A model generated the notes under the pieces. It saw only the letters and a program-made list of their open reading frames with translations. It was not told where the DNA came from and ran no database searches. The position numbers and the translations under genes are program-made. Below, one piece after another: positions 23,809-55,036 of a DNA stretch of 64,000 bases. This DNA comes from Oribacterium sp. WCC10. GTDB taxonomy: Bacteria; Bacillota; Clostridia; Lachnospirales; Lachnospiraceae. Where the stretch lies: the NCBI RefSeq assembly GCF_900113415.1, contig NZ_FOPH01000003.1, positions 186,001-250,000 of the forward strand, read 5' to 3'. How positions within the stretch are numbered: position 1 is the stretch's first letter; every line of letters begins with the position of its first letter.

Positions 23809-23819
23809 TCTTGAGAACA

Positions 23820-23901
23820 AACGCTAGGGGCGCATTTGCTGAGATGATCCTTTGGATCAACCCTTTTTACCTGATCAGGTTAGTACCTGCGTAGGGAAGC
23901 A
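23820..23901 (+). ncRNA. TPP (THI-box) riboswitch of thiT
   Basis: The aptamer shows the conserved TPP elements in order: AGGGGCGC, GCTGAGAT, a variable hairpin (GATCCTTTGGATC), ACCCTTTTTACCTGATC, GGTTAGTACC and TGCGTAGGGAAGC. It binds thiamine diphosphate and lowers expression of the downstream transporter. The expression platform lies at 23902-23981 and ends in a hairpin that contains the thiT ribosome site and is followed by seven T. Confidence 0.97.
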
Positions 23902-23957
23902 ATTATCTGTTGATATCACTTGTACTTTTAGTGAGTTACATGATATTTATGCATGCC

Positions 23958-27896: not shown

Positions 27897-27919
27897 CGGG
27901 TTAACGTATACAAAAGCTC

Positions 27920-28009
27920 TACTCCCTACGTTGGCATGATCCAAATCAGGTTTCAGGGTCCGGGAAGCACATTCCCAATCTCAGCCGGTTCTGACCGACA
28001 CCCCCGTTT
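27920..28009 (-). ncRNA. TPP (THI-box) riboswitch of the thiE-thiD-thiW-thiM operon
   Basis: Read on the minus strand the aptamer shows GGGGGTGTC, GGCTGAGATTGGG, a GC hairpin, ACCCTGAAACCTGATTTGG and GCCAACGTAGGGAG, all hallmark TPP elements. Ligand binding should favour the terminator at 27865-27896. The region between aptamer and folD contains an AT-rich promoter zone with TATAAT at 28050-28055 (complement) but no clear -35. Confidence 0.97.
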
Positions 28010-28105
28010 ACTTCTATATGTACAACTGAATGTACATAATTATTGTTAAATTATATCACGTTAGAAACATATGTGATATTGATTTTTGAATTTTAAAAAA
28101 AATAT

Positions 28106-34168: not shown

Positions 34169-34270
34169 GAGAATACCTCCTGTAAGAATATATGCATGCA
34201 TATATTTCTTCGTATGTTTTTTAATAATTCATAAGACTCAGGAATCAGAAATATCAGAAAAAATATCCGA

Positions 34271-34294
34271 GGAAATGCTTTAATCAGCATTTCC
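34271..34294. repeat. Solo hairpin of the dispersed repeat family
   Basis: GGAAATGCT-TTAATC-AGCATTTCC is palindromic and nearly identical to the right end of the full repeat copy at 49988-50107 (GCTTTAATCAGCATTTCCC), with similarity continuing into the flank (TATTC..ATGAA). Confidence 0.7.
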
Positions 34295-34335
34295 CTTTGT
34301 ATTCATATGAAGGCCCAATCTTTATATTACAAAAA

Positions 34336-39109: not shown

Positions 39110-39149
39110 TTAGTATAGATTTACCGGCAGTACTAAGGAACTATCTTTG

Positions 39150-39174
39150 GAAACACTGATTAAATCAGTGTTTC
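39150..39174. repeat. Solo hairpin of the dispersed repeat family
   Basis: GAAACACTGATT-A-AATCAGTGTTTC is a 12-bp perfect palindrome matching the left end of the full copy at 49988-50107 (ACACTGATTAAATCAGTATT). It lies 40 nt after the DUF819 gene and could double as a transcription stop. Confidence 0.7.
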
Positions 39175-39250
39175 ACTTAAATCCTTTTCACTACCGGTTT
39201 TGTAATACCGATTATTGTTTAACTACACTAACCTTCGGAGGTTATCTTTA

Positions 39251-49916: not shown

Positions 49917-49987
49917 TTGGTAATTACCCTTTCATAATTCTTCTTAAGATTTCTCTGATACTCTTTTTATTTAAAACTTAAAGCTAT

Positions 49988-50107
49988 GGAACACTGATTA
50001 AATCAGTATTTCCCTAGAGCCTCCTGCGTCGCGGTACGGATTTTCAAAGGAAGTTGATGCTTCGCATCGAAAATCCGGCCAGAGGAACGCTTTAATCAGC
50101 ATTTCCC
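49988..50107. repeat. Full-length dispersed structured repeat, copy A
   Basis: A 120-bp non-coding repeat. The left end is the hairpin ACACTGATTAAATCAGTATT. The centre is a large hairpin bounded by GGATTTTC and GAAAATCC around GATGCTTCGCATC. The right end is the hairpin AACGCTTTAATCAGCATT. Copy B at 54689-54808 is its reverse complement with roughly 75-80 percent identity over the full length by my manual alignment. It lies between the azoreductase and MCP genes. No ORF, target duplication or transposase was recognised. Confidence 0.85.
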
Positions 50108-50150
50108 TATATTCTCAAATGAATACTTTTTCATGTTACATCAGGCATGC

Positions 50151-50177
50151 AAAATCCGTGGCTGAGCCACGGATTTT
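50151..50177 (-). terminator. Terminator of the MCP gene
   Basis: AAAATCCGTGGC/GCCACGGATTTT is a perfect 12-bp stem with a 3-nt loop, 31 nt past the MCP stop codon; the T-run forms its 3' arm on the minus strand. Confidence 0.8.
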
Positions 50178-50207
50178 CCCTCTTCATAATTTTTCCCGGA
50201 TGGAACA

Positions 50208-52382
50208 TTATCCTCTTAACCGGAATTTTGTAACAAGACCATCGAGTTTTTCTGCCTGAGTTGAAAGTTCCTGGCTGGCTGCCGCACTCTCCTCTGCTGT
50301 TGCCGAGTTGGTCTGTACTACTGAAGAAATCTGATCGATTCCTTCTGTTACCTGCTGTATACCGGCACTCTGCTGTTCAGAAGCTTCAGAAATCTTGCTT
50401 ATCAGTTCATCGATTCTTGTGAAGCTTTCGGATACCTTGCCAAGGGCGATTGCAGTCTCATCTGTGATTCCTGCACCCTTATGTACAGCCTCAATCGTAT
50501 CTTCGATAAGCTTAGCAGTATCACCTGCAGCATCCTGCGACTTCTTTGCCAGATTACCTACCTCATCAGCTACAACAGCAAATCCCTTTCCGGCAGTTCC
50601 TGCTCTTGCCGCCTCAATCGCTGCATTAAGTGCAAGAATGTTAGTCTGGAATGCAATGTCATCAATAGTCTTGATGATCTTGCCTATTTCATTTGCCTTC
50701 TCTGTTATTTCTGTCATGGAGTTAGACATTTCCCGCATCTTATCATTGGATGTTCTGACTGCATCATTGGAACCCTGACTGATCATTGCAGCTTCCTTGG
50801 TCAGGTCTGTTGTGCTAAGTACCTTCCTGGAAATATTTCCCATAGCCTTTGAAAGATCCTCAACCGATGAAGCCTGCTCTGTAGATCCCTGTGCCAGCGC
50901 CTGGGAACCGGAAGCAACCTGCTCTGCTTCACCGGATACCTGATTTGCCGAACTCTTGATCTCTCTCATGGTTGCAGATAATTCTGTACTGATGCTGTTC
51001 ACAGCTTCTTTCAACGGTGCATATGCTCCTACATACAGTTCCCTGTGTCGGTTCGAATCAGTATTGAAGTTACCTGCTGCAAGCTGTGTCAGATTCTCTG
51101 AAAGATCCTCGATAATCTTGCGAAGTCTCTCAATAAACTGGTGAATCGAGTCTGCAAGAACTCCGATTTCATCATTTCCTTTGTATGATACATCTACATC
51201 AAAGTTACCAACTGCAACTTTCTGTGCAGCATCTCCGATTCGATTGAGAGGTGCGAGAGTTTTCGTCAGAAGACTGACTACGACAAGACTTAGAACAGCA
51301 AGTGCAATAATTGCAAATATCACGATAAAAATGACTATATCATAATTCGGAGCATAATAATCATTCTGCTGAAGTGCGCATTGTGTCCACCAGTATCCGC
51401 CGCCAACTTCAATCGGTGAGAAGTAACGGATTACCTTTCCGTTCTTTTGAGAGGTACTTGTGAACTTGAATCTCTCATGTGTCTGCTCGCCATTTGTAAA
51501 ATCAGCAAAGCTCTTTTCTCCGATGACATCCTTGAAACTGGTTCCAATGATAGCCAGATTGCTGCTGAGCAGGAAATCACCGCTTCCGCTGAATACATTG
51601 TAGATCATATTGTTGAACGGAGGATGTTTATCCACGATAATACCGAATGACGCCGTATCTATGGTGATGATAACAGTACCTTTAAATGCACCATCAGAAA
51701 CTATAGGATAGTAAAGCGTTACAACCTTCATCTCATCCATCTCGTATGCCGACGATGTTCCATTCTCAAGAGATGATTTTGCCGGAGCATAATACTCAGC
51801 ATTTGCATAGGAATCGTATTCAAGATTTCTAACAATTCCATTTTCGTTATCAGTTCTTGTTATGTAAGGTGCGAACTGTTTCATATCCTTTGAAAATGCA
51901 CCCGGTTCCATAAGGATTCCGACACCAGCTATATAATCATATGTTGATACTGCATGAATCAATGAATTCAATACAACGGTTTCAGCTGCATATCTGCTTC
52001 CACTGATTTCTTCACCTGTCACACGGCTGAAAAAAGTGCCGGTCGTCGGTTGTGGCTGTTCCTTGATATCGCCCTCAACCGTCCATGACGCAACAATACC
52101 TGATTCCCTGCTGTCATCCGACGCATACATACGCTTCATTACTGTCTGGATATTCTCATCAATATCATTTGCAACATTCAAAATTGACTGGATCTTTGAG
52201 GCACCTTTGTCTGCCATTGCGTACATGGTCTTGTCAGTAGCTTTCAGCATGGATCCGCCGACAAAAACAATGATTGCTATCGTCATTGCCGCAAAAACCC
52301 CCAGAAGTACAATTGCAACAATTGCGGCCAGCTTTCTACTTATACTGGACTTTTTACGTAATGTCGCTTTCCCGTATTTCAT
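50208..52382 (-). CDS. Methyl-accepting chemotaxis protein with dCache-type sensor
   Basis: A 724-residue receptor. TM1 is at about 18-43 and an extracellular dCache-like domain at about 44-335 ([30 protein letters not shown]). TM2 lies at about 350-372, followed by HAMP (about 373-430) and a second HAMP-like linker. The signalling domain reaches its hairpin tip at about 610-650 ([35 protein letters not shown]) and ends in [17 protein letters not shown]. It should be a polar membrane receptor feeding CheA. No che genes adjoin. AAGGAG lies upstream of the ATG. The ligand is unknown. Confidence 0.94.
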
Positions 52383-52476
52383 TTTTGTTCTCCTTCAATC
52401 AATATTCGTTAAAGCTTCTGTACAATTTCACGTTCATATCATCAAGGGTTATATCGGCAGTATTATCAATAAAAAT

Positions 52477-52503
52477 AACAGGCATCACAAAATGATACCT
52501 GTT
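52477..52503 (-). terminator. Terminator of nudC
   Basis: AACAGGCATCA/TGATACCTGTT (one G-T pair) around CAAAA is followed on the minus strand by ATTTTTATTG. It starts 5 nt past the nudC stop codon. Confidence 0.85.
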
Positions 52504-52507
52504 TTTA

Positions 52508-53329
52508 TCAATTGAGAAGATTTTCTTTGAAAACCTTCATCATCTCATTTGTAAGACTCAGATTATTTGGCTGAAGCTCAATACACTCTCTTTTCACCCA
52601 ATCTGCATATTTTAACTCATTCTCATCCATGCGGATCTTTCCATCACCATCTGCCTCACAGAAAAAACCTACCAGAATATCCTGCGCCATTCCCCATGGT
52701 TGTGATTTATAGTAACGGATGTTTTTCACCGAAACTCCGGTTTCCTCCATCACTTCTCTCGCAACAGTTTCCTCAAGTGTTTCTCCTATCTCCGTGAATC
52801 CTGCCACCAGTGCGTTATGTCCATATCCTCTACGATATTTCGTGATCAAAATGCAATCATCCTTTATGACACCTACGATAACCGCCGGATTGATTCTTGG
52901 ATAAATGATATTGTTACATTCAGGACATCTCAAAGCTCTTTCTTTCTCATCAAACACTAAACGATGTCCGCATTTGCCACAATACTTATTGTCATCATAC
53001 CATTTCCAGAGATGGTACCCTGTAAAAAGCGCAAACACTTCTTTCCCGGAAAACCTGTCACGAATCTCCCGGATTGAATAATAGTCAAATCCTTCCCTGA
53101 TGAAAACATGCACTCCTGTTTTCAAAAAGAATCTGGTTTCATCCACTGAAAAGAGATATATCACATCATCTGAACCTGTATCTTTTTCGGTGAGAAAAAC
53201 AACTTCGCCATCCTTTTCCCCGACAAGTATTTTTCCGTCTTTGTCAAAAACAAGAATACTGTCATCATCTCTGATGTCAAAATTCGTAAACGCATTATTT
53301 AATCTGCTTGGGTAAATATCCTGTATCAT
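52508..53329 (-). CDS. nudC: NADH pyrophosphatase NudC
   Basis: A 273-residue Nudix hydrolase that cleaves NADH to NMNH and AMP and can remove NAD caps from RNA. The zinc ribbon has CGKCGHRL and CPECN (about residues 119-142). The Nudix box reads GFTEIGETLEETVAREVMEETGV in which the catalytic Glu residues are all present (shown here only in outline: G-x5-E-x7-REVMEETG). The downstream NADH-specificity motif is SQPWGMAQD instead of the usual SQPWPFPxS. GGACAG lies just upstream of the ATG. Confidence 0.95.
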   Translation of the reverse strand: MIQDIYPSRLNNAFTNFDIRDDDSILVFDKDGKILVGEKDGEVVFLTEKDTGSDDVIYLFSVDETRFFLKTGVHVFIREGFDYYSIREIRDRFSGKEVFALFTGYHLWKWYDDNKYCGKCGHRLVFDEKERALRCPECNNIIYPRINPAVIVGVIKDDCILITKYRRGYGHNALVAGFTEIGETLEETVAREVMEETGVSVKNIRYYKSQPWGMAQDILVGFFCEADGDGKIRMDENELKYADWVKRECIELQPNNLSLTNEMMKVFKENLLN

Positions 53330-53401
53330 TTTCTGTCCTTATTCCGTCCTTTCGATATTCCGTGAATTGATTAGTGTCATAGAATGAGTTAATTCAGCCA
53401 G

Positions 53402-53424
53402 GGAAACGCTTTAATCAGTATTTC
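53402..53424. repeat. Solo hairpin of the dispersed repeat family
   Basis: GGAAACGCT-TTAATC-AGTATTTC resembles the right end of copy A (GGAACGCTTTAATCAGCATTTCC) in the gap between nudC and the zinc-ribbon gene. The inner hairpins are not present. Confidence 0.65.
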
Positions 53425-53497
53425 TCTGAAATAAAAAAACTACGGAGATGAAAGCGCATGGTATAAAATCAAGCTTTTTATCACCCGGGATTTATGT

Positions 53498-53824
53498 TTA
53501 GTTAACGTTTAATGCTCCACCGCAATTCGAACAGAAATTACCACCGCTATTGGGAGTTCCGCAGTACGGACAGAATCCGGGCGTACGTTTACCCAAAACC
53601 TGTTGAGCCGATTCAAGGAGAGCTTTGCGTTTCTGTTCATCCTCCCTGATGATTCTCTGTGCTTCTTCCTCCGCACGCAGACGTTCTTCCGGTGTCATTC
53701 TGGCCATAGTCTCCAGAGCCAGCCTTTGTGCTTCTTCAAGCTTTTTGGCCAATTCTTCCGGAGAAAGGGAGGCAGCAGCTTTTAATTTTGCCATCTCTTC
53801 TTCATAATTATAGTTTGTATCCAT
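53498..53824 (-). CDS. Small zinc-ribbon protein with charged helix
   Basis: A 108-residue protein. The N-terminal 75 residues are a charged amphipathic helix rich in Glu, Ala and Arg (SPEELAKKLEEAQRLALE, TPEERLRAEEEAQRII) and the C-terminus is a zinc ribbon with CPYCGTPNSGGNFCSNCGG. The start is the ATG at 53824 with GGAGG 5 nt upstream, not the longer frame. Such double-CxxC ribbons are common in small regulatory or scaffold proteins; the function is unknown. Confidence 0.8.
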   Translation of the reverse strand: MDTNYNYEEEMAKLKAAASLSPEELAKKLEEAQRLALETMARMTPEERLRAEEEAQRIIREDEQKRKALLESAQQVLGKRTPGFCPYCGTPNSGGNFCSNCGGALNVN

Positions 53825-54017
53825 TTCCAACCTCCTCGTCTTTTTATAAATCAGTTGAAATATAAACAATTCTTCCGTACCCGGCACGGTGTTTTATTCC
53901 CATATCAAAAGAATACTTCTACAGGCATCAACAGCAAATATATCATTGATCACATTTCACACAGACACAAGTGGGAGAATCATGATATTTATAACATTAT
54001 ATCACCTGTTGCACATA

Positions 54018-54656
54018 TTAAGCGGTGCAAATAATATCAATCGCATATCTTGACAAATCAACTCTGCCATCAATAACTTCTATTCCATCCGCTTCCAGAA
54101 GTTCTTTCTGAGCCCACGCTCCACCAAATGCATACTCCCCGGCCAACTCACCCTTTGAATTCACCACCCGATAACAAGGTATATTGTCAAAATCAGGATT
54201 TTTGTGTAAAGCATTACCAACTGCCCGACACATCTTCGGATTTCCTGCCATGGCAGCTACCTGCGCGTAGGTTGCCACTTTTCCTTTTGGAATTCTTTTT
54301 ACCGCTTCATATATACGTTTGGTAGGACTGTCTGTCACAAGATAATAGCTTTCTGCTATCATTCTTTTTATTTCTTCATCAGGAATAGAACCATCTAATA
54401 TCACTGTATTCCAATGCTCTTTATTCTGATGATACCCCGGTAAAACTGACTTATATGCTTTTCTCCAAAAATCGCGCCATTCAGGATCACATTTCAAATT
54501 CAGACAAATCTGCCCATCCTTTTCATATGTCCACAAAAATGCTTTTTTACCGGGCTTGACTCTTATCAGCTGCCAGTTTGCATCATGAAATGGAGCCTCC
54601 TGATATGTATCAGCAAATGTCAAACCATATGCCAATGCCTCTTCTCTGGTTTTCAT
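54018..54656 (-). CDS. YjbR-MGMT fusion: putative alkyltransferase-like DNA repair protein
   Basis: A 212-residue two-domain protein. Residues 1-105 are a YjbR/MmcQ-type DNA-binding-like domain (FADTYQEAPFHDANWQLIRV, WNTVILDGSIPDEEI). Residues 112-185 are an O6-alkylguanine-DNA alkyltransferase domain with KRIPKGKVATYAQVAAMAG, MCRAVGNALHKNP and the active site IPCYRVV. The acceptor Cys is present, but the usual PCHR His is Tyr. Such fusions occur in clostridia. The ATG has AGAGGA upstream. Repair activity is uncertain because the Cys-His-Glu relay appears altered. Confidence 0.9.
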   Translation of the reverse strand: MKTREEALAYGLTFADTYQEAPFHDANWQLIRVKPGKKAFLWTYEKDGQICLNLKCDPEWRDFWRKAYKSVLPGYHQNKEHWNTVILDGSIPDEEIKRMIAESYYLVTDSPTKRIYEAVKRIPKGKVATYAQVAAMAGNPKMCRAVGNALHKNPDFDNIPCYRVVNSKGELAGEYAFGGAWAQKELLEADGIEVIDGRVDLSRYAIDIICTA

Positions 54657-54688
54657 ACATTATCCTCTAATTCTTTAAAGTTACTTTA

Positions 54689-54808
54689 AGAAAACGCTGA
54701 TTAAAGCGTTTTCCTGCCGGATTTTCAATGCGAAGCATCAAATCCCTTTGAAAATCCGCGCCCCGACGCCGGAGATTCTGATGAACCACTGATGATATAA
54801 GTGGTTCC
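54689..54808. repeat. Full-length dispersed structured repeat, copy B
   Basis: A 120-bp non-coding repeat in reverse orientation to copy A. Its left hairpin is AACGCTGATTAAAGCGTT, the central hairpin is bounded by GGATTTTC and GAAAATCC around AATGCGAAGCATCA, and the right end holds CACTGATGATATAAGTG. The central block is almost identical to the reverse complement of copy A. It fills the 380-bp gap before the DUF362 gene. The remainder to 55036 is AT-rich with a TATAAT at about 54900 but no convincing -35. Confidence 0.85.
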
Positions 54809-55036
54809 TTAGATTATACTACAAAACATTTCAGTATTCGGATTTATAAACTTTTGATCGTACATTACCGTAAGTAAACAATTTTTTATTAAAACTATTT
54901 TATAATGATACAAATGCAGTATTCTAAAAAAATATAAACTGTTAAAATAAATTTAATTTACAGCTTTAACTGTCAGGGAAAAGTTGTTTATGTTTAGAAC
55001 TAATGCCAGGTTTTGTTTATCAAAAAGGAGATTTTT

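Follow-up and report, generated by a model that had tools for sequence, protein, structure and literature searches.

A dispersed repeat with terminal hairpins and a conserved bulged core in Oribacterium sp. WCC10 and related genomes, a probable MITE-type element

Bacteria commonly carry short structured repeats, and the enzyme that moves these is in most cases not known. RUP displays ends like those of IS630-Spn1 and a TA target. Non-autonomous elements derived from IS200/IS605 carry hairpins near both ends and have their target matched by internal sequence; they insert without target duplication.

RUP, ERIC, Correia/NEMIS and YPAL are described in PMC2229807 as MITE-like bacterial repeats of about 100–200 bp, non-coding or nearly so, with predicted transcripts that can fold; most have inverted-repeat ends and several have target duplications. 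The bcr1/BCR repeats of the Bacillus cereus group are about 150 bp long, have a conserved secondary structure, occur in tens of copies per genome in association with a TTTAT motif and are described as confined to that group (PMC6542083, PMC2267715). In the REP/BIME/REPIN systems with RAYT, as these sources present them, two inverted terminal palindromes and a foldable spacer move as one unit, and solo hairpins occur (PMC3116915, PMC3733652).

The 64,000 nucleotide stretch of the gut bacterium Oribacterium sp. WCC10 analyzed here (the window) contains two full-length copies of a 119 bp element, copy A at positions 49988–50106 of the + strand and copy B at positions 54690–54808 of the − strand. 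The preliminary description had read them as copies in opposite orientation. This is confirmed, as their 88-nt ungapped arms are 80% complementary and alignment with further copies extends the homology over the entire unit. The unit of about 119 bp has the order HP1–HP2–HP3–HP4. The hairpins first named are present, however the total is four stem-loops, with a small HP2 added, and HP1 of copy B is degenerate. HP3 is a long central stem that carries a 10-nt bulge (AAAGGAAATT). The terminal inverted repeats of the family (GGAAACRCTGATTA) are imperfect; 14 of 16 bp are identical between the alignment consensus ends GGAAACACTGATTATA and GGAAACGCTGATTAAA. Neither copy has coding capacity, as had been stated, and the longest stop-free stretches are 36 codons (A) and 41 codons (B).

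Short direct repeats, absent from the earlier account, are found immediately outside both copies. Copy A has CTAT on the left (49984–49987, + strand), a probable target repeat on the basis of left-right agreement across the copies of this genome, and CTAT on the right (50107–50110, + strand, by sequence reading). Copy B has on the − strand CTAA on the left (54809–54812) and TTAA on the right (54686–54689), both of which were included in the agreement test given below. The window also displays a right-end remnant on the + strand consisting of a solo HP4 plus the preceding GCCAG (53397–53429, L051) and a solo right-end hairpin of HP4 type (34269–34298, + strand). A further solo hairpin is located between CTTT and CTTA (39145–39179, + strand) and was detected by the terminal-pattern search.

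The genome has at least 41 long copies, A included and B missed (best E-value 8e-44 apart from self); scoring covered 40 of 126 first-look candidates and the number is therefore a lower bound. By eye there are about 50 near-full copies, plus truncated and solo-hairpin ones. The terminal patterns occur at 71 and 97 sites, and at none with the reversed controls. The proviso that there might be only two copies is thus refuted, and identity extends beyond the palindromic cores in the alignment of further copies. A composite element made of A and B was also considered and was dropped because copies are spread genome-wide. Copies are dispersed in both orientations and are almost always intergenic; three of 30 copies (L004, L007, L015) lie within an open reading frame of at least 80 aa that extends across the element. 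One candidate, L065, is apparently a chance match in coding sequence. Two copies on contig C28 (242068 and 242387) have a common private variant and probably represent one local duplication.

A 3′-truncated copy (L375) and solo hairpins both exist, and several partial copies (L047, L354, L273) show microhomology or arm-repeat junctions. For these reasons a retroposon-like origin, which 5′-truncated copies had suggested, was dropped.

The element is short and non-coding, has at least 41 dispersed copies and has terminal inverted repeats. We consider that it is probably a bacterial repeat of MITE type, a non-autonomous DNA transposable element about 119 bp long, whose flanking 4-mers would be a target duplication and whose HP1-target match would arise mainly by template switching. 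Within the scope of the Rfam scans, the at least 41 copies and the 4-mer agreement, support is given to the initial reading of a MITE-like dispersed element that fits no named family; RUP, ERIC and bcr are set apart by description only. A separate element, itself unseen, would provide the transposase in trans, and this enzyme would produce the 4-mer duplication. The bulged HP3 would be required for mobility as a module for binding or folding, and the solo hairpins would be leftovers of deletion between repeated arms. Neither an autonomous element nor a transposase with such ends was found in the stretches read, which in the WCC10 genome were the solo sites close to the hairpin, and no parent element with TATA-type ends was recognized in the carrier genomes G116 or G067 (by eye among 11 G116 stretches, with open reading frames listed for L342 only).

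In 30 copies of the WCC10 genome, read strictly by alignment column, the 4-mer on the left matches that on the right at 87 of 120 positions, versus 74.3 expected (p=0.0001). The 4-mer type is CTNN. The agreement is carried by position 4 (25/30, p=0.0001), and positions 1–3 singly show none beyond chance. In G006 the whole 4-mer agrees at 45 of 80 positions versus 42.5 (20 rows, p=0.27), where only the first base agrees beyond chance (13/20, p=0.0075). These column-strict tests include all 30 WCC10 rows and 20 of 21 G006 rows. The 4-mers are a probable target repeat. Empty sites were sought with anchors beside 29 copies in seven genomes of the same genus, and the joined flanks of 30 copies were compared. 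Alignments cross the junction for six copies and for none of the remaining ones. The 4-mer is present once in three of the six (L011/L139, L020/L159, L030/L207) and is not shown in the other three (L003, L019, L022). The best empty site, CTAAGGAAAT in G015, also resembles the left end of the element itself, CTNAGGAAAC, and is thus ambiguous, as it may instead be a remnant of a lost copy. A search for empty sites in relatives of RGIG4306 gave no result beyond weak matches in six of 25 other genomes, at 72–81% identity. The empty-site evidence for a target duplication is thin.

The stem of HP1 runs on into the target 4-mer, and the pairing follows this 4-mer from one copy to the next. Its internal arm complements the left 4-mer at 89 of 120 positions versus 76.5 (30 copies, p=0.0004), and complementarity is also seen by subfamily (CTNA/TNAG, TATA/TATA). 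Two-sided changes in the WCC10 genome exceed shuffles in HP1 only and not in HP2, HP3 or HP4, where the shuffles ignore relatedness of copies. They number 8 versus 2.4 shuffled in the outer four pairs (p<0.001) and 5 versus 1.75 in the inner pairs (p=0.03), and four of the five inner ones are one common subfamily change (L010, L018, L020 and B). L113 and L090 show copy-private double changes within the inverted repeat and distant from the 4-mer, in L117 an insertion of one base, private to this copy, makes HP4 perfect, and in L029 10 contiguous paired bases run into the flank. Pairing beyond the 4-mer across all copies is 48 versus 43.6 (p=0.12).

This pairing could also be that of an element transposed as single-stranded DNA, in the manner of IS200/IS605 or REP/RAYT, where a Y1 HUH enzyme acting in trans recognizes the hairpins, an internal guide pairs with the target 4-mer and the right 4-mer moves with the element. 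Hairpins at the ends and in the center, with a bulged A, are in keeping with this, as is the arm-to-target complementarity per copy and per subfamily. The internal arm also agrees somewhat with the right 4-mer (81/120 versus 73.5, p=0.01), however the left-right agreement is stronger. Y1 matches are found in all five other carrier genomes tested, that in G006 being an intact 255-aa frame, but the element matches the DNA around this gene at chance level only. The WCC10 genome, which is 97.4% complete, has no match to the Y1/RAYT transposase (PF01797, Y1_Tnp), whereas controls match in 5 of 14. An unpaired GTAG or CGTC tag was not seen by eye on the consensus; CTNN adjoins HP1 and HP4, and the letters CGTC occur in HP2 only. 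Single-strand transposition is therefore unlikely, and the REP/BIME likeness proposed at first sight is not upheld. Under the non-autonomous transposon reading the HP1-target pairing most likely arises from template switching during replication, which perfects near-palindromes and would be the main source of the match in each copy; the excess of two-sided changes in HP1, the private changes of L113, L090 and L117 and the long pairing of L029 support this. Copy-by-copy covariation in a palindrome beside a target site may thus be mutational and not a result of RNA selection.

Relatives are found in 10 of 116 genomes and in 5 of 391 genomes, the WCC10 genome counted in; in the former set at most 29 candidates per genome were scored, and copy numbers are lower bounds. 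Alignment A2 excludes L023 (3′ end lost) and L067 (truncated), and alignment A4 excludes L024, L074, L087 and L075 of A3 (misaligned or redundant). Viral contigs searched with two exact element patterns, and phages (one G116 copy) and plasmids (one WCC10 copy) searched by distant blastn, gave no result. The terminal hairpins and the target 4-mer vary by subfamily and one structured core is shared, also by subfamilies with other ends and the 4-mer TATA; exchangeable ends are seen in G116, G067, G006 and G464. The core is kept across three families of the class while the ends are changed. Ordinary MITE families show the opposite of a retained core with replaced ends, and this counts against the MITE-type reading. 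HP3 shows two-sided changes across lineages in 11 of 18 pairs (36 cells versus 13.1 shuffled, 12 sequences) and its unpaired bulges are conserved, and by this comparison it is kept by compensatory change.

A structured RNA (small RNA or mRNA-stability element), with the copies as functional units that selection maintains where they lie, would account for the HP3 covariation and conserved bulges, and two good copies have fold z-scores of −8.9 and −9.7. Copy A reaches only −2.6 (folded from 49987 on), compensatory changes are not in excess in HP3 or HP4 within the WCC10 genome, where copies decay, and Rfam covariance models give no match at the element (gathering scan of the window and lax scan of 10 loci). 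Orientation relative to genes is also neutral, both neighbors being on the strand of the element in 11 and on the opposite strand in 11 of the 28 copies with two neighbors (mechanical gene calls). This explanation leaves the dispersal unaccounted for and is very unlikely.

The preliminary description had suggested an active or recently active element. This is not supported for the WCC10 genome, where the copies listed are 80–92% identical to A, and it fits a relative, the RGIG4306 metagenome-assembled genome, in which the TATA-type copies are almost identical to one another. Judged by divergence the WCC10 copies are old and RGIG4306 carries young ones. The RGIG4306 loci L101 and L103 have 1606 identical bases in common and L108 and L112 are identical; both pairs may therefore be assembly duplicates. 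The divergence in WCC10, where many other copies are truncated, would also suit a passive relic, spread in the distant past by a transposase since lost, with covariation wholly due to template switching and a core without remaining function. This is highly improbable in view of the near-identical RGIG4306 copies and of a core maintained in three families despite changed ends.

A mobile element with a retained core might also work in another way, the bulged core being a scaffold bound by the mobility enzyme and the terminal hairpins exchangeable guides, with the internal arm of HP1 pairing with the 4-mer and selecting the insertion site. We regard this as quite unlikely; if true, one core could move with many target specificities. 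A core that is constant across several families while ends and 4-mer change together offers a direct handle on the recognition needs of the mobilizing enzyme.

The element resembles RUP, ERIC, Correia/NEMIS and YPAL, as these are described in PMC2229807, in size, non-coding nature, inverted-repeat ends and folding. Unlike them, by description, its ends are each a complete hairpin, its structured core is common to subfamilies that differ in ends and 4-mers, and HP1, at its left end, forms pairs with the target 4-mer. With bcr1/BCR, again by description, it has in common that it is a Firmicute repeat of conserved structure, with tens of copies and association with a short motif, although the motif differs. 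Like REP/BIME/REPIN as portrayed in the sources cited above, it pairs inverted terminal palindromes with a foldable spacer and has solo hairpins; it differs in its length of about 119 bp, its conserved bulged core, its probable 4-bp target repeat, the lack of a GTAG/CGTC tag by eye and the lack of a Y1/RAYT match in the WCC10 genome. Hairpins near both ends and an internal sequence that matches the target are shared with the IS200/IS605-derived elements. Here however no Y1 match is found in the WCC10 genome, left and right 4-mers are in agreement, and the target-matching arm of HP1 sits 3′ of the hairpin loop.

Two inverted full-length copies of one unit are present in the window, in agreement with the preliminary description; copy A is at positions 49988–50106 (+) and copy B at positions 54690–54808 (−). 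Neither has protein-coding capacity, which also agrees with that description. Copy A is located between a flavodoxin-like protein gene and a chemotaxis receptor gene and has CTAT at its left and right flanks alike. The neighbors of copy B are a DUF362/4Fe-4S gene and, on the other side, one encoding YjbR and methyltransferase DNA-binding domains; the flanks of this copy, read on its own strand, are CTAA and TTAA. Three lone hairpins of the family are found near 34.3, 39.1 and 53.4 kb. The window also displays two TPP riboswitches (Rfam RF00059), at 23816–23914 (+) and 27906–28015 (−).

The element consensus, built from 35 aligned copies, displays four stem-loops. HP1, at the left end, is a nearly perfect palindrome, CTNAGGAAACACTGATTATATCAGTGTTTCCTNAG, and HP2 is a small hairpin. 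HP3, the core, has a long stem, capped by 5 bp, in which an A and a 10-nt segment (AAAGGAANTT) bulge out. The right end is formed by HP4, GGGAAACGCTTTAATCAGCGTTTCCC. At the DNA level the element ends are inverted repeats, GGAAACACTGATTATA vs GGAAACGCTGATTAAA, with 14 of 16 positions matching. Fold z-scores are −8.9 and −9.7 for two good copies, −5.6 for copy B and −2.6 for copy A, whose fold began at 49987 without its outermost bases.

A BLASTN search of the Oribacterium sp. WCC10 genome (3.64 Mb, 53 contigs) with copy A gives at least 45 matches, and at least 41 of these, copy A among them, extend over 94 bases or more; this long-match count is a lower bound, as scoring covered 40 of the 126 candidates and copy B is absent from the list. 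Identity to copy A is 80–92% among the other 40 long matches listed. With copy B and further copies that were read added, near-full copies number about 50 by eye count. Terminal patterns are found at 71 sites (right hairpin) and 97 sites (left hairpin) vs 0 in reversed controls, and many of these sites are truncated copies or solo hairpins. Neighboring copies on contig C28 (242068–242187 and 242387–242509) have a private HP1 variant in common and are probably one local duplication of ~320 bp. On contig C33 (L022/L057, ~24.6–24.9 kb) a 184-base self-match (97%, 87-base offset) marks a tandem repeat close to a copy of the element.

Neighboring genes were called mechanically for 30 copies of this genome. 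Among the 28 copies with two neighbors, both genes run in the element's direction in 11 cases, both run against it in 11, and the strands are mixed in six. An open reading frame of at least 80 aa (mechanical call) spans the element in three of the 30, and the remaining copies are between open reading frames. Four copies begin where the upstream open reading frame stops, its stop codon being inside the left 4-mer, i.e. the four bases just outside the element.

Left and right 4-mers of the 30 copies agree at 87 of 120 positions vs 74.3 when permuted (p = 0.0001, strict columns). Position 4 drives the agreement (25/30), and positions 1–3, taken singly, show no significant agreement in these copies. 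In a second carrier genome, G006, the first base alone agrees above chance (13/20, p = 0.0075) and the entire 4-mer does not (p = 0.27). Evidence from empty sites is thinner than these statistics: joined-flank alignments across the junction were obtained for six Oribacterium copies. At L011 the DNA reads gaaCTGA, the element and then CTAAGGGAATT, and genome G015 has gaaCTAAGGAAAT at the same place; since its CTAAGGAAAT is similar to the element's own left end too, this empty site may be a remnant of the element. The comparisons L020/L159 and L030/L207 also fit, less exactly than L011, and the 4-mer is absent at the junction in three of the six alignments (L003, L019, L022). A 4-bp target repeat at insertions is likely, and our main reading, held with reasonable confidence, is that the element is a non-autonomous DNA transposable element.

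HP3 is kept between lineages by compensatory change. Among 12 sequences, compensatory changes are found at 11 of 18 pairs, both sides are changed in 36 cells vs 13.1 in shuffles, and 92.6% of cells are paired vs 31–45% when slid. Within the Oribacterium genome, HP2, HP3 and HP4 show no excess of two-sided changes over shuffles. The outer four pairs of HP1, which are the left 4-mer joined to the internal arm, show eight two-sided Watson-Crick changes vs 2.4 (p < 0.001). The inner HP1 pairs show a weak excess (5 vs 1.75, p = 0.03), four of the five double changes being one change common to L010, L018, L020 and copy B; the covariation shuffles ignore relatedness. Agreement between the left 4-mer and the internal arm extends to 89 of 120 positions vs 76.5 in this genome (p = 0.0004) and to 49 of 80 vs 42.0 in G006 (p = 0.0015). 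At least eight contiguous pairs outward from the inverted-repeat edge are present in three copies (L013, L017, L029) vs 0.36 expected (p = 0.004), with ten in L029 that reach into the flank; for all copies pooled, pairing past the 4-mer is not significant (p = 0.12).

Double changes private to single copies are found inside the inverted repeat in L113 of RGIG4306, a Lachnospiraceae MAG, and in L090 of G006, and a private one-base insertion in L117 makes HP4 perfect. Template switching perfects such stems and makes compensatory changes in one step, according to PMC8794818, and is also a topic of PMC7202029 and PMC3820800. It is the preferred explanation of the HP1 covariation. Target choice by HP1 pairing is possible, because the internal 4-mer follows each subfamily's target.

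The exact core pattern matched eight stretches in genome_contigs (84,980 species): five from RGIG4306, one from [Clostridium] aminophilum KH1P1, one from Oribacterium sp. UBA4274, and one that is apparently a chance match in coding DNA and was rejected as a family member. The UBA4274 record matches locus L071 of G010, a genome of the same genus as the one studied here, without a difference over 3126 bases. The element model matches in 10 of 116 relatives and the core-only model, applied to 391 genomes of the class, in five, own genome counted in both; the other four core-only genomes belong to the same taxonomic family (one), a second family (two) and a third (one). The repeat family is spread thinly over the class.

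Terminal hairpins vary among carriers and the core is kept. The terminal hairpin is TATAGTGAACGTC... in RGIG4306 and TATAGTAAACGAC... in G067, both with the 4-mer TATA, GGAAATGCTG... in G006 and ATATCATCAGTGG... in G464. RGIG4306 has CTAA-type copies at eight places (L099–L106) and TATA-type copies at 18, some of which may be the two halves of a single copy split between contigs; the TATA-type copies are near-identical among themselves by eye. Element copies are old in the Oribacterium genome and young in RGIG4306, and that the element is a passive relic appears quite improbable. A second RGIG4306 repeat (L347, L352, L114, L125), TATAGTAAACGAATTAAGTAATTG(C/G)ACTTTG(C/T)CGAGCC, has a start similar to the TATA-type right end, and the L114 element is seemingly inserted in one copy of it. 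Short elements in G069 (L076, L083, L088) display a CTAAGGAAG(C/T)ACTGAT-type hairpin and a different, smaller core, and are perhaps another subfamily.

Solo hairpins (L273, L272, L377 and others) consist of the left-end arm joined to the right-end arm. In a duplicated locus of RGIG4306 contig C42 (L342; 215–360, 2553–2597), the element is complete in one paralogue and represented by a solo HP4 in the other. Judged from the junctions, the solo hairpins fit deletion between directly repeated arms, and the partial copies L047, L354 and L360 fit microhomology deletions.

Single-strand transposition by a Y1-type enzyme is a doubtful alternative for the mode of movement. Y1 transposase (PF01797) matches are found in five of five other carriers tested, broken or partial in G067 and RGIG4306, and the Oribacterium genome gave no match. 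In G006 (C9, 7040–7375; L132, L319) the domain is in an intact frame of 255 aa, a RAYT-like size; matches to the element around this gene are at chance level, with no link seen. Inspection of candidate stretches, in most cases close to the hairpin only, revealed no parent element. Non-autonomous transposable elements remain the most likely identity of the hairpin-ended repeats.

The family of hairpin-ended repeats is real and, as far as searched, unnamed. No such Lachnospiraceae repeat family is among the matches listed in a literature search whose coverage excludes most subscription journals, so that absence of reports is weak evidence of novelty. The element is set apart from REP/REPIN by the features tested, and for an IS200/IS605 derivation the enzyme is missing in the Oribacterium genome. 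Two clostridial stem-loop families, Clop-1 and Clot-1, are named in PMC2267715. Compared by description, the element works like bacterial MITE-like repeats (PMC2229807) and is similar to bcr1 in size, folding and copy number (PMC6542083).
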